From a virus, in IMG/VR virus record IMGVR_UViG_3300030110_003279, positions 1-40,355 of that record: 40,355 nucleotides of DNA; one strand, given 5' to 3'. The translations under genes and the position numbers were made by a program. Below the pieces are notes generated by a model, which was not told the DNA's origin, made no database searches, and worked only from the letters and a program-made list of their open reading frames with translations. Every line of letters starts with the position of its first letter. The first letter of the stretch is position 1. Positions 6,184 to 21,793 of this stretch are shown here, piece by piece.

Positions 6184-6600
6184 TTAGTTATTTGTTGTTT
6201 CCCAAGCGTTTGATTCACCTGTTTTTGTTGCTTCTTCTACTACTTCTTCTTCTTTTGTTTTACTATCATCTATTGCTTTTTCAATGTCTCTCATAATGCT
6301 TTGTGCATCATCAAGATAATCGTTTGCATAGCCTGCACTATCATTTGCGTTATCCGCTTCACATCTTGCGTTGTCTGCATACATACTTGCGTCTTGTGCC
6401 GAATTAATCGCACTATTTAAAGTATCTCTAAGACTATTAATATCTTTATCAATATTAAATGCAATTCCACCTTTATCTAAGTCAGTAATTACTTGTACAA
6501 GGTTTATTCTTTCAGTCTCTAATTGCTCACATAATGTGTCAATCATTTTACTATCATTTATTAGACCTTGCACGCACTCTCTTACTATTTTATTTTCCAT
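6184..6600 (-). CDS. first leftward gene: helical/coiled-coil early protein, 138 aa
   Basis: First gene downstream of the leftward promoter candidate and separated from the rest by a terminator, so probably the most abundant early product. It is almost wholly helical: an N-terminal 60-residue segment, then alanine/aspartate/asparagine-rich pseudo-repeats (AINSAQDASMYADNARCEAD, NANDSAGYANDYLDDAQS) and an acidic, Glu/Thr-rich disordered tail. The A-D-x-A spacing suggests an amphipathic bundle or coiled coil. No family recognised. A weak GAGAAAAG precedes ATG 6600. Confidence 0.65.
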   Translation of the reverse strand: MENKIVRECVQGLINDSKMIDTLCEQLETERINLVQVITDLDKGGIAFNIDKDINSLRDTLNSAINSAQDASMYADNARCEADNANDSAGYANDYLDDAQSIMRDIEKAIDDSKTKEEEVVEEATKTGESNAWETTNN

Positions 6601-6686: not shown

Positions 6687-6718
6687 CATAAATAAGTATA
6701 TTAAAATATATATAAATG

Positions 6719-7052: not shown

Positions 7053-7313
7053 ATGAATAATAATAAATTAGTTGATAATTTAATATTGAGCTTGAATCAA
7101 GAGATAAATGTTTATAAGCATTTATTAAATAAAGAGCTTGATAAGCGTGAAAAGTTAGAGAGTGAAGACATGTATTTTGACGAAACAACGCAAGAAAATG
7201 TTATAAGTTCACAATATTATGAGATTGACTTAGAAATAGAGTACTTGAAAGGCTCTATTGGAGTATCACAACATATAATGCAATTAATAAAAGAAAATAC
7301 AGATAACTTATAA
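7053..7313 (+). CDS. small coiled-coil protein, second of a tandem pair (86 aa)
   Basis: Starts 1 nt after the preceding stop; AAAGGAGAAAAATAAAATG gives a strong SD. Helical, charged, with the same architecture as its neighbour: N-terminal helix (LVDNLILSLNQEINVYKHLL), a D-E-[QT] linker and the shared YEIDLEIE motif followed by a C-terminal helix. A recent local duplication or a heterodimeric pair is likely. Function unknown. Confidence 0.65.
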   Translation: MNNNKLVDNLILSLNQEINVYKHLLNKELDKREKLESEDMYFDETTQENVISSQYYEIDLEIEYLKGSIGVSQHIMQLIKENTDNL

Positions 7314-7343
7314 ATAAAGAGTATAACAAAAAGGAGTATACAA

Positions 7344-7658
7344 ATGATAGGAACACATAGAACAACAACAACAAACATACCTGTTAATAATGAGCAGTCA
7401 AGATTAATAGTTACGTTTCATAATACCGCAGTCGTCCAGGTGGTTAATGATAGATACGTTATATTAAATAGTGGTGGGTGGTTAACACCTACTACTAAAC
7501 GCAGAATGAATCAAGCTTCAGACGTTTACAGATTAAACTATTTAGTATATCAAAAGGGTTGGGTATGGTATGTGCAAACACCCGAAACGATTACAGAGTT
7601 CACAGATAATATTATAATAGATAAAGTTACAGGTAAGATATTGAGTAGACTTCCATAG
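7344..7658 (+). CDS. conserved phage protein with LNSGGW...RMNQAS motif
   Basis: 104 aa; strong AAAAAGGAGTATACAA before ATG 7344. The core reads IVTFHNTAVVQVVNDRYVIL, then LNSGGWLTPTTKRRMNQAS, YLVYQKGWVWYV and a final TDNIIIDK. I recall this pattern (short beta strands, LNSGGW-x-T-x-TTK-x-RMNQAS, QK-x-x-x-W-V) as a small beta-rich protein conserved in many unrelated phages, of unknown function. It ends the small rightward operon just before a terminator. Confidence 0.7.
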   Translation: MIGTHRTTTTNIPVNNEQSRLIVTFHNTAVVQVVNDRYVILNSGGWLTPTTKRRMNQASDVYRLNYLVYQKGWVWYVQTPETITEFTDNIIIDKVTGKILSRLP

Positions 7659-7667
7659 TTCGCACTA
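7658..7667 (-). repeat. 10-bp inverted repeat, right copy (GTTCGCACTA)
   Basis: Reverse complement of 6729-6738. It overlaps the last base of the 104-aa gene and precedes the operon terminator. Confidence 0.6.
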
Positions 7668-7697
7668 TACTAAGCCCGCAATAACCCCACAAAAAAA

Positions 7698-7730
7698 AGC
7701 CCCGACTATAATGGTTGGGGCTTCTCTTTT
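7698..7730 (+). terminator. intrinsic terminator of the small rightward operon
   Basis: AGCCCCGACT (7698-7707) pairs with GGTTGGGGCT (7713-7722), with G-T wobbles, followed by TCTCTTTT. On the opposite strand the stem is followed by eight T residues, so it may work in both directions and insulate the early genes from the late operon. Confidence 0.75.
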
Positions 7731-8191
7731 ACTGAAAGTCTGTAAAATATCTACATATGATTATAATGATGTGTTTTTTACATAATTTTCAACCTAATTT
7801 AGAGGGGTACACAGGCACAACTATGGGGGGTGGGCAGGTAAAAGAACACTCACACACATTCTAATATTATTTTTAAAAGTTTTCTATTTTTTCCTATTAC
7901 TATAGTTTAATATAGCTGTTTTGGTGAGTTTTGGGTAGAGACTATCTAATCCCCCTATTATAAATAAAGAGATTAGTCTCAATTCCCATATAGCTGTTTC
8001 GGAGCCTGTTCATTATGGTAGGGTAATCTTTTCTGTTACTAGCTCAATTACCTTCGACTTGCTTTTGACTGTGTAACTAATCCCCTTCTAGTAGTCAATT
8101 ACTATTACTATATGCTAGAAGCGTCTAGCCAACCCATATAGCGCACTAATATTAATACAAATAAATATTGTATGCAATAATTATTAATTGA
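7731..8191. other. 461-bp non-coding, repeat- and dyad-rich region before the late operon
   Basis: No open frame longer than about 30 codons was found on either strand. Contents: a G-rich tract (7804-7834); 17-bp direct repeats at 7910 and 7988; an imperfect dyad GAGACTA/TAGTCTC (7939-7980); three related T-C-A-A-T-T motifs near 7974, 8040 and 8092; a CTTCTAG/CTAGAAG dyad (8086-8121); and CTAATCCCC twice. Its place between the early terminator and the small terminase gene is typical for a cos/pac site, a replication origin or late-promoter control. Which of these it is cannot be decided from sequence alone. Confidence 0.55.
7910..8004 (+). repeat. direct repeat pair (ATATAGCTGTTTnGGnG), copies at 7910-7926 and 7988-8004
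   Basis: Two copies share 15 of 17 bases with starts 78 bp apart. A shorter third element, CATATAGC, occurs near 8135. Could be protein-binding iterons or terminase recognition repeats. Confidence 0.5.
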
Positions 8192-8962
8192 ATGTATATT
8201 ATTTTAATGGAATTAAAAAAAATAAAAGGTGTAGAACATAGGCTTTATGATAGCCATGAAGAGTTTTGTGCCTTTCAGGGCGCTTTAACGCCTAAAAGTG
8301 ATTGGCGTGAGTCAAATGAGGGTGATTGGGTTTATACAGACGACCATCATGTAGTACAAATACTTAAGGTATATTACATTACAGTCCCTAATTCCAAAGA
8401 AAAGCGTAAGTGTGTGCGCACAATATGTGGTAGTTTTGTCTGTAAACAGAAAAATGCTAAGATATTAGGCGAAAAAGGCGTTGCAGAGAACATTTATACG
8501 TTTTCAGGCAATTATGATACGATTAAAAAGATACGTTCAACCAAATTATCCTCTAAAAAGCTATTATTTGCTAAATATGTAGCGGCAGGGATAGATATGG
8601 AAGAAGCTTACAGTCGTGTTTACCCAAAAGCTAACGATAAGCAGTATATTAAAAACGCAGCAAACAAATTATTACAACAAAAGAAGGTAATGCAGATGGT
8701 TAAAGAAGAAATAGCTCTGGTTTTAAAAGAAGAAGGTGTTACACCAGAGTATCTTATACAAAAATACAAAGATATAGCAGATGTTTCAGAAAGGGACCAA
8801 GATAAGCTTAGAAGTCTAGATGCTTTAGCTAAAATGTCTGGTTTATTTGAAACAGAAAAAAAACGTGAAGAGTTAACTGTATGGGCTGGTTTTAGTCCTG
8901 AACAACTGGAGGCGATTAAAGGTGGCAAAACAGAAGTACTTGCACATAAAGAAAAAGAGTGA
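8192..8962 (+). CDS. putative terminase small subunit
   Basis: 256 aa if started at 8192; ATG 8207 (MELKKIKG) is equally plausible, as neither has an SD. Residues 118-170 carry a helix-turn-helix-like DNA-binding region (KLLFAKYVAAGIDMEEAY, NAANKLLQQKKVMQMV) like the K-x-x-F...Y..G....A...A...LL....V pattern of small terminases. The C-terminal part (VTPEYLIQKYKDIADVSERD and WAGFSPEQLEAI) also resembles phage TerS proteins. The first 115 residues are a separate beta-rich domain (GDWVYTDDHHVVQILKVYYI). It is the first late gene, followed after seven small genes by TerL. Expected role: recognise viral DNA and start packaging. Confidence 0.65.
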   Translation: MYIILMELKKIKGVEHRLYDSHEEFCAFQGALTPKSDWRESNEGDWVYTDDHHVVQILKVYYITVPNSKEKRKCVRTICGSFVCKQKNAKILGEKGVAENIYTFSGNYDTIKKIRSTKLSSKKLLFAKYVAAGIDMEEAYSRVYPKANDKQYIKNAANKLLQQKKVMQMVKEEIALVLKEEGVTPEYLIQKYKDIADVSERDQDKLRSLDALAKMSGLFETEKKREELTVWAGFSPEQLEAIKGGKTEVLAHKEKE

Positions 8963-9161
8963 CATATCTGATAAATTAGACCCTTGTCCCGTATGTGAAA
9001 AAAACTTATATTATGATGAAGATTGTAGTAAAAGAATTGGTGTAATAGAGCCTGATGGTGAAATAGAATCATGGAAATGTCCAGCATGTAAATCAGAATT
9101 TGATTTAAATGATAATATTTTGTATATTTATGGCAGCGAAATAGAAGGTGGACAAGCGTGA
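8922..9161 (+). CDS. zinc-ribbon protein, 79 aa, GTG start
   Basis: Starts at GTG 8922 inside the end of the TerS gene, with GGAGG 9 nt upstream. Two knuckles, C22-P-V-C25 and C53-P-A-C56, plus C35, give a zinc-ribbon-like arrangement; the rest is acidic. Such short proteins usually bind nucleic acid or partner proteins. It lies between terminase and small basic proteins, so a packaging or late regulatory role is conceivable, but this is inference. Confidence 0.65.
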   Translation: MAKQKYLHIKKKSDISDKLDPCPVCEKNLYYDEDCSKRIGVIEPDGEIESWKCPACKSEFDLNDNILYIYGSEIEGGQA

Positions 9162-9445
9162 AGACTAAAGATGCAAGATTAAGAAGAGCAGGAGTAAGTG
9201 GTTATAACAAACCTAAACGTACACCTGGGCATCCTAAAAAATCACATATCGTAGTTGCTAAAGAAGGAACTAAAATTAAAACTATAAGATTTGGCCAACA
9301 AGGTGTAAAAACCGCTGGCAAGCCTAAAGCAGGTGAATCGCAACGTCAAAAAAATAGGAGGAAGTCTTTTAAAGCTAGACATGGCAAAAATATAGCAAAA
9401 GGTAAAATGTCAGCAGCTTATTGGGCTAATAAAGAAAAATGGTAA
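9158..9445 (+). CDS. conserved small basic phage protein (YNKPKRTPGHPKKSH type)
   Basis: 95 aa, strongly basic. GTG 9158 overlaps the preceding stop (GTGA), with AAGGTGG upstream. Signature segments KPKRTPGHPKKSHIVVAKEG, TIRFGQQGVKTAG, SFKARHGKNIAKGKMSAAYW are ones I recall as highly conserved in phages, especially marine ones, annotated only as a domain of unknown function. The conserved basic, Gly/Arg/His pattern suggests nucleic-acid binding or a virion-associated role; unproven. Confidence 0.75.
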   Translation: MKTKDARLRRAGVSGYNKPKRTPGHPKKSHIVVAKEGTKIKTIRFGQQGVKTAGKPKAGESQRQKNRRKSFKARHGKNIAKGKMSAAYWANKEKW

Positions 9446-17936: not shown

Positions 17937-18683
17937 ATGCCTTTAGGATTAGGTAGTAACTTATCAAGAGCAATTTCTAAACCTATAACACCTGGTATAG
18001 TAACAGATAACCTCGTACTAAAACATAACTATAATGCAGGCAGTGTAGTACCTTGTAGTGATGGTGCTGCATTTTTTGATGGTACTGATGATTATATAGA
18101 ATGTGGAACTACAAACTTAAATCCAAATTCTATTACAGCTGCCGCATGGGTTCGACTTCCTGGAGAGGCTCCAACTGATAGTTATCTTAGAATAGTAGTA
18201 GGAGATGGTGATGAAAAGTCTTGGCATTTAAGATACGACAAATCAGGTGGTAGATTTGTTGGAAGATTTTCTGTTAATGGCTCGGATATAGAACTTTGCT
18301 CGACAGATTCAACGTATACAGACTATAGCAAATGGTATTACGTTGCTGTTAATTATAACTCTTCAAATGGAGAATGTAAAATATATGTAGACGGTGTTCA
18401 TGATGGTACTGATAGTGGTGGTATTACAGGAAATCTACATGTACCAAGCACACCTGTTGTAAGAATTGGTCAAGAAACTAATGCAACTACTAATAATTGG
18501 GATGGATATATATGTAATGTAGGTATATGGTCATCAGTATTAACACAACCACAAATTAAATCTATAATGAACAAGAATTATGCTGGATTAACATCTAGCG
18601 AAAAAACAAATTTAGTATCATGGTGGAATCTTAGCGCAGATGCTAATGATTCACATGGCTCAAATAATGGGACACTTTCATAA
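17937..18683 (+). CDS. LamG/concanavalin-A-like domain virion protein, 248 aa
   Basis: Residues about 45-205 form one LamG domain: AAFFDGTDDYIECGTTNLNP, ITAAAWVRLPGE, SKWYYVAVNYNSSNGECKIY and VDGVHDGT, DGYICNVGIWSSVLTQPQIK. These are the F-D-G-x-x-D-Y-[IV], [IV]-x-x-W-[VF], W-x-x-V-x-x-x-[YF] and IYVDG hallmarks. Such domains bind glycans and often decorate heads or fibres. A C-terminal segment (NLVSWWNLSADANDSHGSNN) is the usual tail of phage LamG modules. Overlaps the next LamG gene by one base (TAATG). Confidence 0.75.
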   Translation: MPLGLGSNLSRAISKPITPGIVTDNLVLKHNYNAGSVVPCSDGAAFFDGTDDYIECGTTNLNPNSITAAAWVRLPGEAPTDSYLRIVVGDGDEKSWHLRYDKSGGRFVGRFSVNGSDIELCSTDSTYTDYSKWYYVAVNYNSSNGECKIYVDGVHDGTDSGGITGNLHVPSTPVVRIGQETNATTNNWDGYICNVGIWSSVLTQPQIKSIMNKNYAGLTSSEKTNLVSWWNLSADANDSHGSNNGTLS

Positions 18684-21600
18684 TGCCAGCTACAATACAA
18701 AATATATTAAAACCAACACGAGCTAGAGGATTAGATACTTCTGGTAACAACAATCATGCACAAATATATTCAGGTAGAGCATTAGAGTTTGATGGTGTTA
18801 CTGATTATTTAGATACAGGAATGACTGAATTAACTTCAAATGGTAAATTTACTATTGCTGGATGGTTTTACATTAATAAAACTAATAGTTCTGATGCTAC
18901 AATTTGGAGTATAGCTGATTGGGAAACTTCTTCTATTAGAGGTATAGTTATGAGAATTAGTAGTAGTGATTTAAAAATACAAATAGGAAAAGCTGGTAGT
19001 AGCACATATTCTGCTCAATTAATTATAGATAATAGTGATAATGACGAATTTCAAGGATTATGGAATAGTTGGCATCGTTATGTTGTTACAGTAGATAGTG
19101 ACGCATCTGGAGATACTAATTCTACATATAGAACTTTAAATTGTTATGTTGATGGTGTTTTAGTTGCTAATGAAGATTTTGATAATACACCTAATCACTT
19201 TCAATCGGAAAATGGAAAAACATTTAAAATAGGTAAAGGAGATGTAAACGCAGGTACTTCTTATGCTTCTATGAAAGCATCTGATGTTCAATTTTGGGAT
19301 AAAGTGTGGACACAAGATGATGTAACCTATGATTATCTTAACCCAGAACAATTAGCATTAAATAGAGGTGGTAACACTGTAACAGGTGTAGGTACACAGT
19401 TAACTGAATCTAATCTTAAACTATGGTACCCAATGAATGAAGGTCATAGAGGTGACCAATATTTTATAAGTGACGCTTCTAGTGTAGGTCTTGGTGAAAA
19501 TATTGTTGATGAAGCAGTATCTACAGGAGATAGTGTATCTGGATTACAAGATTTTGGAGATACCGCCTTATCTGTAGAAGATGGAGCGATAAAAGTTCTT
19601 TACAATACTCATGCAAGTGGTATGTATTTTTATTTAAGAGATACTAATATTCTTACTAAAGACTTAGTTGTAGGCAGAACTTATAAAATAACTCTTAGAG
19701 CAAAAATGTCTGATAGTCAAGTAACTTTTAAGATACAAGGAGCAACTCCATCTTTTATAGGAGACACTCTAACATCTACAGAATATGTGGAAACTAGTTT
19801 AATTTTTAAAGCAACCTCACCAACAGGTCATTACTTTTTTACTCATTTTGATGATGCTGGAAGTCGAGTTTCAGGACAAACAGCTTTGTATATAGACTCT
19901 ATGACTGTCAAGCCAATCAATGGAACAAACAACGCAACAACTGTATTTTATGGTGAAGAGCAAATAACTGATTCTAAAAATAGAGACTTTGGTTCATCTA
20001 GCGATTGGGCTGTTTTGAATATTGCAGGTGGAAGTTTAACTGAACCATCTAATAAATTACAAATAGTAACATCGACAGATGAAGAAAGTGAAGGTGCGCA
20101 ATTAGCTATAGCTGAGTTTACAACTCCTGTTATTGGGAGAACATATAGAATTTCAGCAACAATGCAACAAACATCGGGTGCTACTACTCCTCAAATAGGA
20201 TTTCAATATGCAGGGACTGGAAGTTCTTATTTTAATATATCAGCATCTGCTGTTACTTACACTAAAGATATAGTGGCAGTAAATACTACGGGAAATCTTA
20301 AAATTTTTAATACTTCTAGTGCTAGTTCTACTACTTTTACAATAGACGATGTATCAGTTAAAGAAGTAGGTATAGCAACAGGATGGACAGATGCAGACCA
20401 ACAACTTGATATACCTCAAACAGCATTACAGTCTTATAATGAGTTAGGTTGGAATAACCAAGCTAGTTCAACTCCAGCCAAAGTAAATGCATTTACTCCT
20501 GATTTAGGAACAGGTAATTTTTCTATATCTTTTTGTATGCTTGATAAAGATGTATCAACAAATACAAGATTTATGGCTATGAATCATTCAAGTAATGCAG
20601 GAAGATTTATTTTTCAACAAAATGCTGGTAGATTAAAGCTTTATGCAAATACCTTTAGCGACCCTTCAGACTCAGGAACAACTCAAGCTGTAGGATATAG
20701 TGCGATAAGTAGTTATTGTCTTTCTTCAGGTAAATGGCATCATGTTGTAGCCTCTTTTGATAGAAGTGCTGACCTTGTTAAGTGTTATGTAGATGGAGTA
20801 TATCAAGATACTGACCTTGATATTTCTTCATTAACTGGAAGTTTTAATGCTGGTTCAGAATTTAATTTCTATAATTATACCGATTATTTACAAGGAAGTG
20901 TAACTGAAATAGCTATGTGGAAAGGTGTTGTATTAGATGCTGATGATGCAGCAGAGCTTTATAATGAAGGTAAAATATTAGACGCTTTAACCCATAGTAA
21001 AACTTCTTACTTGTTAAACTATTGGAGAAATACTGGTTTAGGATTATGGCAAGACTTAAAAGGTTCAGCACATATCACACATAATAATATGACAAATACA
21101 ATGCTTATTACAGCAGGTGTAGACAGTTCAAGAGATTCACAAGGGTTCTTGATGAACAGACAAAAACTTACTAATAGTTTGAATTTTCCAAAAGGTGGTT
21201 CAAGAGGAGATGCTTCAATATACGATGAAGCAGCTGTAGTTCAAGATAGTTCTACATTAGATATAACAGGAGATTTTACAATAAGTTTTTGGGTGAAATT
21301 TAAAGAGCATGCTACTTCTAGCACAAGATATAATTTAATTATGAAAAAAGTATCTTGGGATGGAAATGGTTTTGGTATACATCAACATACTGGCAAATCA
21401 ATGCTAGTTGAATATGCTTATAATGGTAGTAGTGGTAATCAGCAATATAGTTCTGGAAGTAACAGTATAGATACTTTAGATGTATGGTATCATGTTTGCT
21501 TTACTCACGAAGATTCAGTTAAAGATGCTTGGTATGTTACAAAAAGTACTAGTGCTACCTTAACTAATACCGCCAATAATACTACTGCTGCTGATGATGG

Positions 21601-21793
21601 TGGAGTTTTACCTTCAGTAGGTACAAATGATTATCCTTTAGTTATTGGTCAAGGAGTAGGTGGAGGACAAGCTAGTTCTACTGACAATATATTTCCTGGA
21701 GAGATTGATGATATATGTATTTATAACGGTAAAGCTTTAACAGATAAAGAAGTATTAAGAAATTTTAACGCAGGTAAAAGGAGTCACAGATAA
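18683..21793 (+). CDS. giant multi-LamG virion protein, 1036 aa
   Basis: Modular: LamG 1 at about 30-225 (ALEFDGVTDYLDTG, FTIAGWFYINK); two successive jelly-roll, carbohydrate-binding-like modules at about 260-415 and 425-565 (VGRTYKITLRAKM, IGRTYRISATMQQ, both ending IDSMTVKP or IDDVSVKE); LamG 2 at about 600-765 (FSISFCML, KWHHVVASFDRSADLVKCYV); and LamG 3 at about 850-1030 (FTISFWVKFKEH). No enzyme motif. Likely a glycan-binding adhesin or head fibre. Order of modules suggests growth by domain duplication. TAATG overlaps on both sides. Confidence 0.72.
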   Translation: MPATIQNILKPTRARGLDTSGNNNHAQIYSGRALEFDGVTDYLDTGMTELTSNGKFTIAGWFYINKTNSSDATIWSIADWETSSIRGIVMRISSSDLKIQIGKAGSSTYSAQLIIDNSDNDEFQGLWNSWHRYVVTVDSDASGDTNSTYRTLNCYVDGVLVANEDFDNTPNHFQSENGKTFKIGKGDVNAGTSYASMKASDVQFWDKVWTQDDVTYDYLNPEQLALNRGGNTVTGVGTQLTESNLKLWYPMNEGHRGDQYFISDASSVGLGENIVDEAVSTGDSVSGLQDFGDTALSVEDGAIKVLYNTHASGMYFYLRDTNILTKDLVVGRTYKITLRAKMSDSQVTFKIQGATPSFIGDTLTSTEYVETSLIFKATSPTGHYFFTHFDDAGSRVSGQTALYIDSMTVKPINGTNNATTVFYGEEQITDSKNRDFGSSSDWAVLNIAGGSLTEPSNKLQIVTSTDEESEGAQLAIAEFTTPVIGRTYRISATMQQTSGATTPQIGFQYAGTGSSYFNISASAVTYTKDIVAVNTTGNLKIFNTSSASSTTFTIDDVSVKEVGIATGWTDADQQLDIPQTALQSYNELGWNNQASSTPAKVNAFTPDLGTGNFSISFCMLDKDVSTNTRFMAMNHSSNAGRFIFQQNAGRLKLYANTFSDPSDSGTTQAVGYSAISSYCLSSGKWHHVVASFDRSADLVKCYVDGVYQDTDLDISSLTGSFNAGSEFNFYNYTDYLQGSVTEIAMWKGVVLDADDAAELYNEGKILDALTHSKTSYLLNYWRNTGLGLWQDLKGSAHITHNNMTNTMLITAGVDSSRDSQGFLMNRQKLTNSLNFPKGGSRGDASIYDEAAVVQDSSTLDITGDFTISFWVKFKEHATSSTRYNLIMKKVSWDGNGFGIHQHTGKSMLVEYAYNGSSGNQQYSSGSNSIDTLDVWYHVCFTHEDSVKDAWYVTKSTSATLTNTANNTTAADDGGVLPSVGTNDYPLVIGQGVGGGQASSTDNIFPGEIDDICIYNGKALTDKEVLRNFNAGKRSHR

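Follow-up and report, generated by a model that had tools for sequence, protein, structure and literature searches.

What function is served by the non-coding stretch ahead of the gene for the small terminase subunit (TerS) in an uncultured phage? The window, meaning the whole 40,355-nucleotide stretch of viral DNA analysed here (IMG/VR record IMGVR_UViG_3300030110_003279), leaves positions 7731-8191 without genes, and the original prediction read this structured region as a candidate cos or pac site or replication origin. The absence of genes is borne out, with the upstream plus-strand gene (7344-7658) ending at 7658. In many aligned relatives a 1-base indel puts the ATG at 8192 in another frame, and the TerS start was therefore moved to 8207, which is most likely the true start and gives a gene-free gap of 7659-8206 (Table 1). 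The supposed position between opposing transcription units does not hold, as gene 7344-7658 and TerS both lie on the plus strand and the nearest divergence point is at 6600/6716.

PHROGs recognises TerS (phrog_51), TerL (phrog_38), portal, and the major head protein. The sequence directly 5′ of the TerS ATG reads TATATTATTTT (8195-8209), and no Shine-Dalgarno sequence was seen. This arrangement suggests that the TerS mRNA may be leaderless or near-leaderless and a late transcript. A Kyanoviridae-type protein encoded in the neighbourhood suggests that the phages are marine. Among the structural genes are two adjacent Laminin_G_3 (concanavalin-like) genes (17937-21793), which are weakly conserved or unmatched in relatives.

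Table 1. Positions of the features of the TerS-proximal gap in the window, with the basis of each assignment.
Feature	Position	Strand	Basis or remark
TerS (small terminase subunit)	8207..8962	+	phrog_51, E 1.8e-05; start corrected from relatives
TATATTATTTTA, probable -10 box abutting TerS start	8195..8206	+	TATATTA[AT]TT in 42/43
RNA promoter, sigma-70-type	8149..8177	-	-35 TTGCAT 8177-8172, 17-bp spacer, -10 TAATAT 8154-8149
Predicted transcription start, first base of helix E	8142	-	inferred from promoter spacing
RNA core	8001..8142	-	helices A-E and tentative F; covariation
Helix E	8142-8136/8113-8107	-	covariation
Helix D	8121-8115/8091-8085	-	covariation
Helix C	8098-8093/8070-8065	-	covariation
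Helix B	8077-8073/8039-8035	-	covariation
Helix A	8052-8047/8027-8022	-	covariation
Helix F, tentative	8045-8041/8006-8002	-	variation one-sided only
R2, GGCUCC and the same X (7999-7993)	7992..8006	-	carrier comparison
P2 hairpin, flanked by R2 and R1	7938..7980	-	column-pair scan
R1, CUCACC and variable 7-nt X (7921-7915)	7911..7928	-	carrier comparison
U block, ~100-bp DNA element	7785..7883	+	precedes TerS whether or not the RNA is present
Bidirectional intrinsic terminator	7691..7723	both	hairpin 7697-7723, 12-pair stem

A predicted minus-strand RNA divergent from TerS

The gap very likely consists mainly of the gene for a stand-alone structured RNA, transcribed from the minus strand by its own promoter and divergent from TerS; that a structured minus-strand RNA exists is close to certain. 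Comparison of relatives supports its existence, strand, promoter, helices, matched repeats, and purifying selection, while the RNA itself is known from sequence alone and its transcript is predicted. Relatives were gathered with TerS as query, giving 46 viral loci, and with a TerS alignment, giving 103 loci of which 80 were kept; further loci were reached through DNA patterns drawn from the conserved element and the U block. The motif occurs in 109 loci, a number that includes many overlapping stretches of the same contig and reduces to 48 unique motif strings and 53 unique cores; a looser scan added zero carriers. The carriers are uncultured phages, and they come from many metagenomes.

Of 43 unique sequences, 42 (all but L018) have a promoter of the form TTGCA[TC]-17/18-TAnnnT upstream of the RNA. 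In 39 of these the -10 box reaches the core edge, and in L090, L107, and L089 it stops 1, 5, and 11 nt short of that edge, respectively; an identical search of shuffled upstream sequences placed a promoter at 0-11 nt in 0.5%. Beyond the RNA promoter, TerS is found on the plus strand in 53/53 unique carriers, at a distance from the motif edge of 52-75 nt in 47 and of 323-1649 nt in six, with a plus-strand gene between RNA and TerS in all four that were inspected among those six (L162, L196, L228, and L234). At the other end, the terminator hairpin is flanked by eight consecutive T on the minus strand (7698-7691) and a T-rich tail on the plus strand, and its arms covary in L034 and L036 when read by eye. 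The predicted RNA should thus measure about 450 nt, from 8142 to the terminator at 7723-7691, of which the first ~235 nt would be structured.

Assignment to the minus strand follows from the wobble tally together with the promoter. On this strand, the paired positions of the core hold 52 G-U versus 6 A-C cells, or 30 versus 5 without the tentative helix F, and the initial assumption of a plus-strand RNA was ruled out on these two grounds. The tally of the P2 hairpin favours the opposite strand (16 G-T and 0 A-C on the plus strand), perhaps through a bulge or register shift. A coding role was also rejected, as reading frames are rarely open across the core: among 51 carriers, one RNA-sense frame is open throughout in a single carrier, one antisense frame is open in 13, and the other four are open in none.

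Interleaved helices and their covariation

In the core the helices are ordered E-D-C-B-A, and every neighbouring pair (E-D, D-C, C-B, and B-A) is interleaved, the joints E-D, D-C, and C-B measuring only 1-2 nt. Covariation was assessed in an alignment, A3, of 26 of the 43 unique cores, comprising 35 pairs in six helices and 910 cells. Left out of A3 were 13 near-identical rows and four sequences with insertions, of which L107 was tested separately (as L201) and L036, L037, and L053 were judged by eye only. In A3, 99.0% of the 910 cells are paired and 14 pairs have changed on both sides. When the letters of the 3′ strands were re-dealt in 500 shuffles, a mean of 92.4% of cells paired, with 6.7 two-sided pairs; shuffles matched the observed value in 0/500 cases on four of five measures and in 14/500 on the fifth, the number of further pair types. 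Sliding the partner strand by 1-3 columns reduced pairing to 31.7-47.4%.

An unbiased scan of all column pairs listed 22 stems, among which A, E, and C took ranks 1-3, P2 came sixth, and D thirteenth; helix B was missing from these 22. Because column-shuffled controls reach up to 3 both-sided pairs per stem, single stems are indecisive at that scan depth. A profile built on sequence only later found more divergent carriers, and the four D pairs that its anchors leave free are kept in 12/12 of these rows, among which L150/L170 and L162/L202 are near-identical and L201 is the L107 contig. In the same rows, helices E, C, B, and A mostly pair within a short-window search, apart from isolated failures in C, A, and B, and L107 forms just four of the five helix B pairs. 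Taking 51 unique carriers together, the inner four D pairs are formed in all 51 through eight sequence combinations, and pairing is found for E in 50, B in 49, and A in 48, whereas C is complete in 33 and within one pair of completeness in 46, the strands of E, C, B, and A having been located within short windows. Exchanging strands between sequences, as a control for these 51, gave pairing of 18-62%.

The original prediction that the region is structured therefore stands as conserved structure revealed by covariation, while by folding energy alone the region is ordinary: the energy of 7900-8150 is no better than that of shuffled sequences (z -0.37 on the plus and -0.60 on the minus strand) under models that lack pseudoknots. 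Several of the simple palindromes in the region lie outside the conserved structure. Two further candidates were set aside. The plus-strand consensus of RNAalifold, nested only and with two-sided change in 8 of 50 pairs, was superseded; a UUGG-CCAA closing helix is invariant in the close group, and R1 of L228 has no CCAA.

The arms of DNA palindromes can covary too, so the same inverted repeats might be DNA sites for dimeric proteins. This reading is extremely improbable, given that no two helices have the same sequence, that they interleave, that a promoter stands at the RNA 5′ end, and that an excess of 52 G-U over 6 A-C would be meaningless in duplex DNA. The interleaved helices could also be mutually exclusive, since the chain divides into two compatible sets, E, C, A and D, B, which would then be the alternative folds of a switch. 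This seems rather unlikely, as the joints of 1-2 nt and the long loops would let E, D, C, and B stack together, a geometry deduced from the sequence.

Selection on the RNA was gauged against TerS. In a TerS-similar set of eight loci (71-86% identity), identity to the window is 76.7% for the core versus 56.8% for TerS third codon positions, and across all 37 loci the values are 88.1% versus 70.5%. As judged by these comparisons, the RNA core is under purifying selection.

The U block and the packaging and origin readings

The RNA shares the gap with a second conserved element, the U block, which has conserved ends, TTTTCAACCTAA and AACACYCACACNCATTCTAANNCTATTTTTNAAA, separated by ~55 variable bases of near-constant length that usually include a G run, and which stands at a near-constant spacing upstream of TerS. 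Several relatives have a C run ahead of the G run. The U block is present in RNA carriers whose flank is long enough (38 bits in G006, locus L090); L228 gives only a marginal match of 7.5 bits at the expected place, and in L234, L227, and L229 the flank is too short to judge. Conversely, among 57 new U-block loci examined among the matches listed, the RNA is seen in 15 and not seen in 42. There is no room for it in 34 of those 42, because TerS starts less than 260 nt from the U block, and of the other 8 several are incomplete. Relatives with a TerL about 77% identical also do without the RNA. Since such relatives exist, the RNA is, on the loci compared, accessory and dispensable to the lineage. 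L044 and L109-L126, which have no RNA, carry AT-rich TCTCTATTATATA-type repeats between U block and TerS, and by eye a TTGCAT-like leftward -35 sequence is retained in them.

The two elements are best kept apart when the cos, pac, or origin reading is considered. The region is structured, conserved, and functional, as that reading supposed, but its main content would be an RNA gene; a packaging or replication role could fall to the U block and not to the RNA, and the U block remains a fair candidate for such a cis-acting site. The G-rich island exists, though neither its sequence nor its position is constant among relatives, and L022 lacks it.

That the region, or the U block in it, is a cos or pac packaging site, putatively bound by TerS, is rather doubtful. 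Throughout the lineage, with or without the RNA, the U block precedes TerS and shares its orientation, and its near-constant spacing and usual G run are consistent with such a site, as is the fact that the ends of many contigs fall in the 1.5 kb before TerS (hand reading). However, these ends are scattered over 0-1.5 kb with no single position (again by hand reading), and the stretch 7908-8142 has covariation of the RNA type. Moreover, two contigs look circular and opened inside the late gene region, and are read as circular maps because the two ends of G003 overlap exactly over 77 bases and the first 50 bases of G002 recur 99 bases before its other end, the full 99 not being identical. The scattered ends argue against a fixed end here and leave room for pac packaging. 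The clustering of unsharp contig ends 0-1.5 kb upstream of TerS probably reflects strain variation in the small genes there.

In RNA-primed origins, such as that of ColE1 with its RNA II, a promoter is followed by a structured RNA and then by a DNA element. The order of leftward promoter, structured RNA, and conserved U block resembles this, the U block accompanies the RNA in carriers with enough flank (marginally in L228), and the proteins searched, which cover part of the genome's ORFs, included none recognised as the product of a replication gene. The RNA might accordingly prime or activate an origin of replication located at the U block, but this is improbable: at least 34 of the 57 U-block loci have no room for it, and GC skew, which the original prediction had offered as a check for an origin, has its cumulative minimum at 6687 and is flat across this region.

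Matched repeats and a possible recognition role

The direct repeats described originally are real (ATATAGCTGTTTYGG at 7910-7924 and 7988-8002). R1 and R2 are the two elements on either side of the P2 hairpin. P2 shows compensatory changes by eye in L030, L036, L107, L150, and L228. The 7-nt X of R1 equals that of R2 in 48 of 51 unique carriers and differs by one mismatch in the other 3, even though X takes 15 variants and carriers differing in R2 are on average 3.07 of 7 positions apart. That two separated copies change together in an otherwise conserved RNA suggests one shared partner. No third copy or complement of X nearby recurs across clades, and a local partner was rejected, the matches being confined to one X clade (L030/L031, L197/L235). 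L228 and L234, with a TerL 34% and a TerS 26-28% identical, still retain the RNA, and X reads GACACAA in both copies. These two also share an extra stretch downstream of R1 in the RNA sense, GAGGGCGGAGCA...TGCCCTCAT (by eye), which looks like an added 3′ RNA domain.

In several clades a minus-strand ORF of 77 aa begins a few nt past R1, which then reads as its Shine-Dalgarno sequence; its product has a basic tail (L105 9474-9704, L089 9261-9491, L140 3066-3281). The RNA could on this ground be a cis-acting, riboswitch-like leader of a minus-strand gene 3′ of it. We consider this quite improbable. No 77-aa gene was found by tblastn in the window, L030, or L034, although the RNA is kept there, nor in 24 divergent RNA carriers including L150; the copy in G004 is far from the RNA; and of 51 carriers, just 14 have AAGGAACT as their R1 sequence. 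The constant downstream gene expected of a riboswitch or cis leader is thus lacking, the 77-aa gene being present in some clades only.

Rfam 15 gave zero matches at or above the gathering score in the window and zero at E 0.05 in 10 carrier loci; within 7600-8300, raising E to 10 gave only sub-threshold hits, mostly on the terminator. ARAGORN found zero tRNA or tmRNA genes in the window. Isolate phages yielded no DNA match to 7200-9200 or to the L228 RNA and no TerS match, and the closest isolate-phage TerL among the matches listed is about 26% identical for the window and 29% for L228. The sole hit of a pattern scan of genome contigs, L133 (an Acidobacteria contig), was dismissed as chance by eye and had no profile hit, and L147 is a weak profile match of 9.7 bits. 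A search of titles and opening lines of abstracts in open-access papers found no description of the RNA. On these comparisons the RNA is most likely a new structured class in uncultured phages.

Several known systems nevertheless invite comparison. The c4 RNA is phage-encoded and structured and has short antisense recognition stretches; here, in contrast, both stretches have one and the same sequence, which changes with the phage, and there is no Rfam match. The prohead RNA of phi29 is likewise the product of a phage RNA gene near packaging functions, and Rfam includes its family. However, the phage studied here has both TerS and TerL, close relatives (TerL about 77%) do without the RNA, and no match to a phi29-type prohead RNA appeared in the Rfam searches of the window and carriers. 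Type III antitoxin RNAs are tandem pseudoknot repeats adjoining an RNase toxin gene; compared on repeats alone, such tandem units are absent among the direct repeats found. The dicistrovirus intergenic IRES is also compact and intergenic but comprises two or three overlapping pseudoknots, whereas the phage RNA lies opposite the strand of its neighbour gene in a DNA phage, has five interleaved helices, and has no Rfam match. The c4 antisense RNA of phages is named as RF01695, and the manA, wcaG, and PhotoRC-II RNAs are described as conserved, chiefly from metagenomes and phages, and tied to particular genes (PMC2864571). Unlike these last three, as described there, the RNA here is oriented away from the neighbouring gene and is preceded by a promoter of its own.

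The following mode of action can be proposed. Transcription would proceed leftward from the sigma-70-type promoter and, in this phage, end at the shared terminator. The 5′ part would fold into five short helices, each interleaved with the next, of which E-D, D-C, and C-B, with their joints of 1-2 nt, could stack into one compact pseudoknot rod. The P2 hairpin would follow the core, with a copy of X on either side. Acting in trans, the RNA would use the rod as a rigid scaffold that offers two identical recognition sequences to one partner, for which host or phage RNA and protein are candidates. X would differ between phages as the partner differs, and both copies would have to follow. In addition, the overlapping divergent promoters would set synthesis of the RNA and transcription of TerS in competition. 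Such twin recognition by a trans-acting RNA is a serious possibility, held with somewhat less than even confidence. More tentatively, the RNA may represent a new phage class in which a rigid rod of five interlocked, pseudoknotted helices offers two identical, lineage-specific 7-nt guides to a target in host or phage, the guides being rewritten together when the partner changes.

To our knowledge, no natural RNA with so many interleaved helices has been described. A search of titles and abstract openings in the open-access literature likewise found none with five. A natural chain of five interleaved helices backed by covariation would extend known RNA topology. The RNA spans phage groups whose TerL proteins are only about a third identical, and its matched, fast-changing X copies would offer a direct handle on its recognition target.
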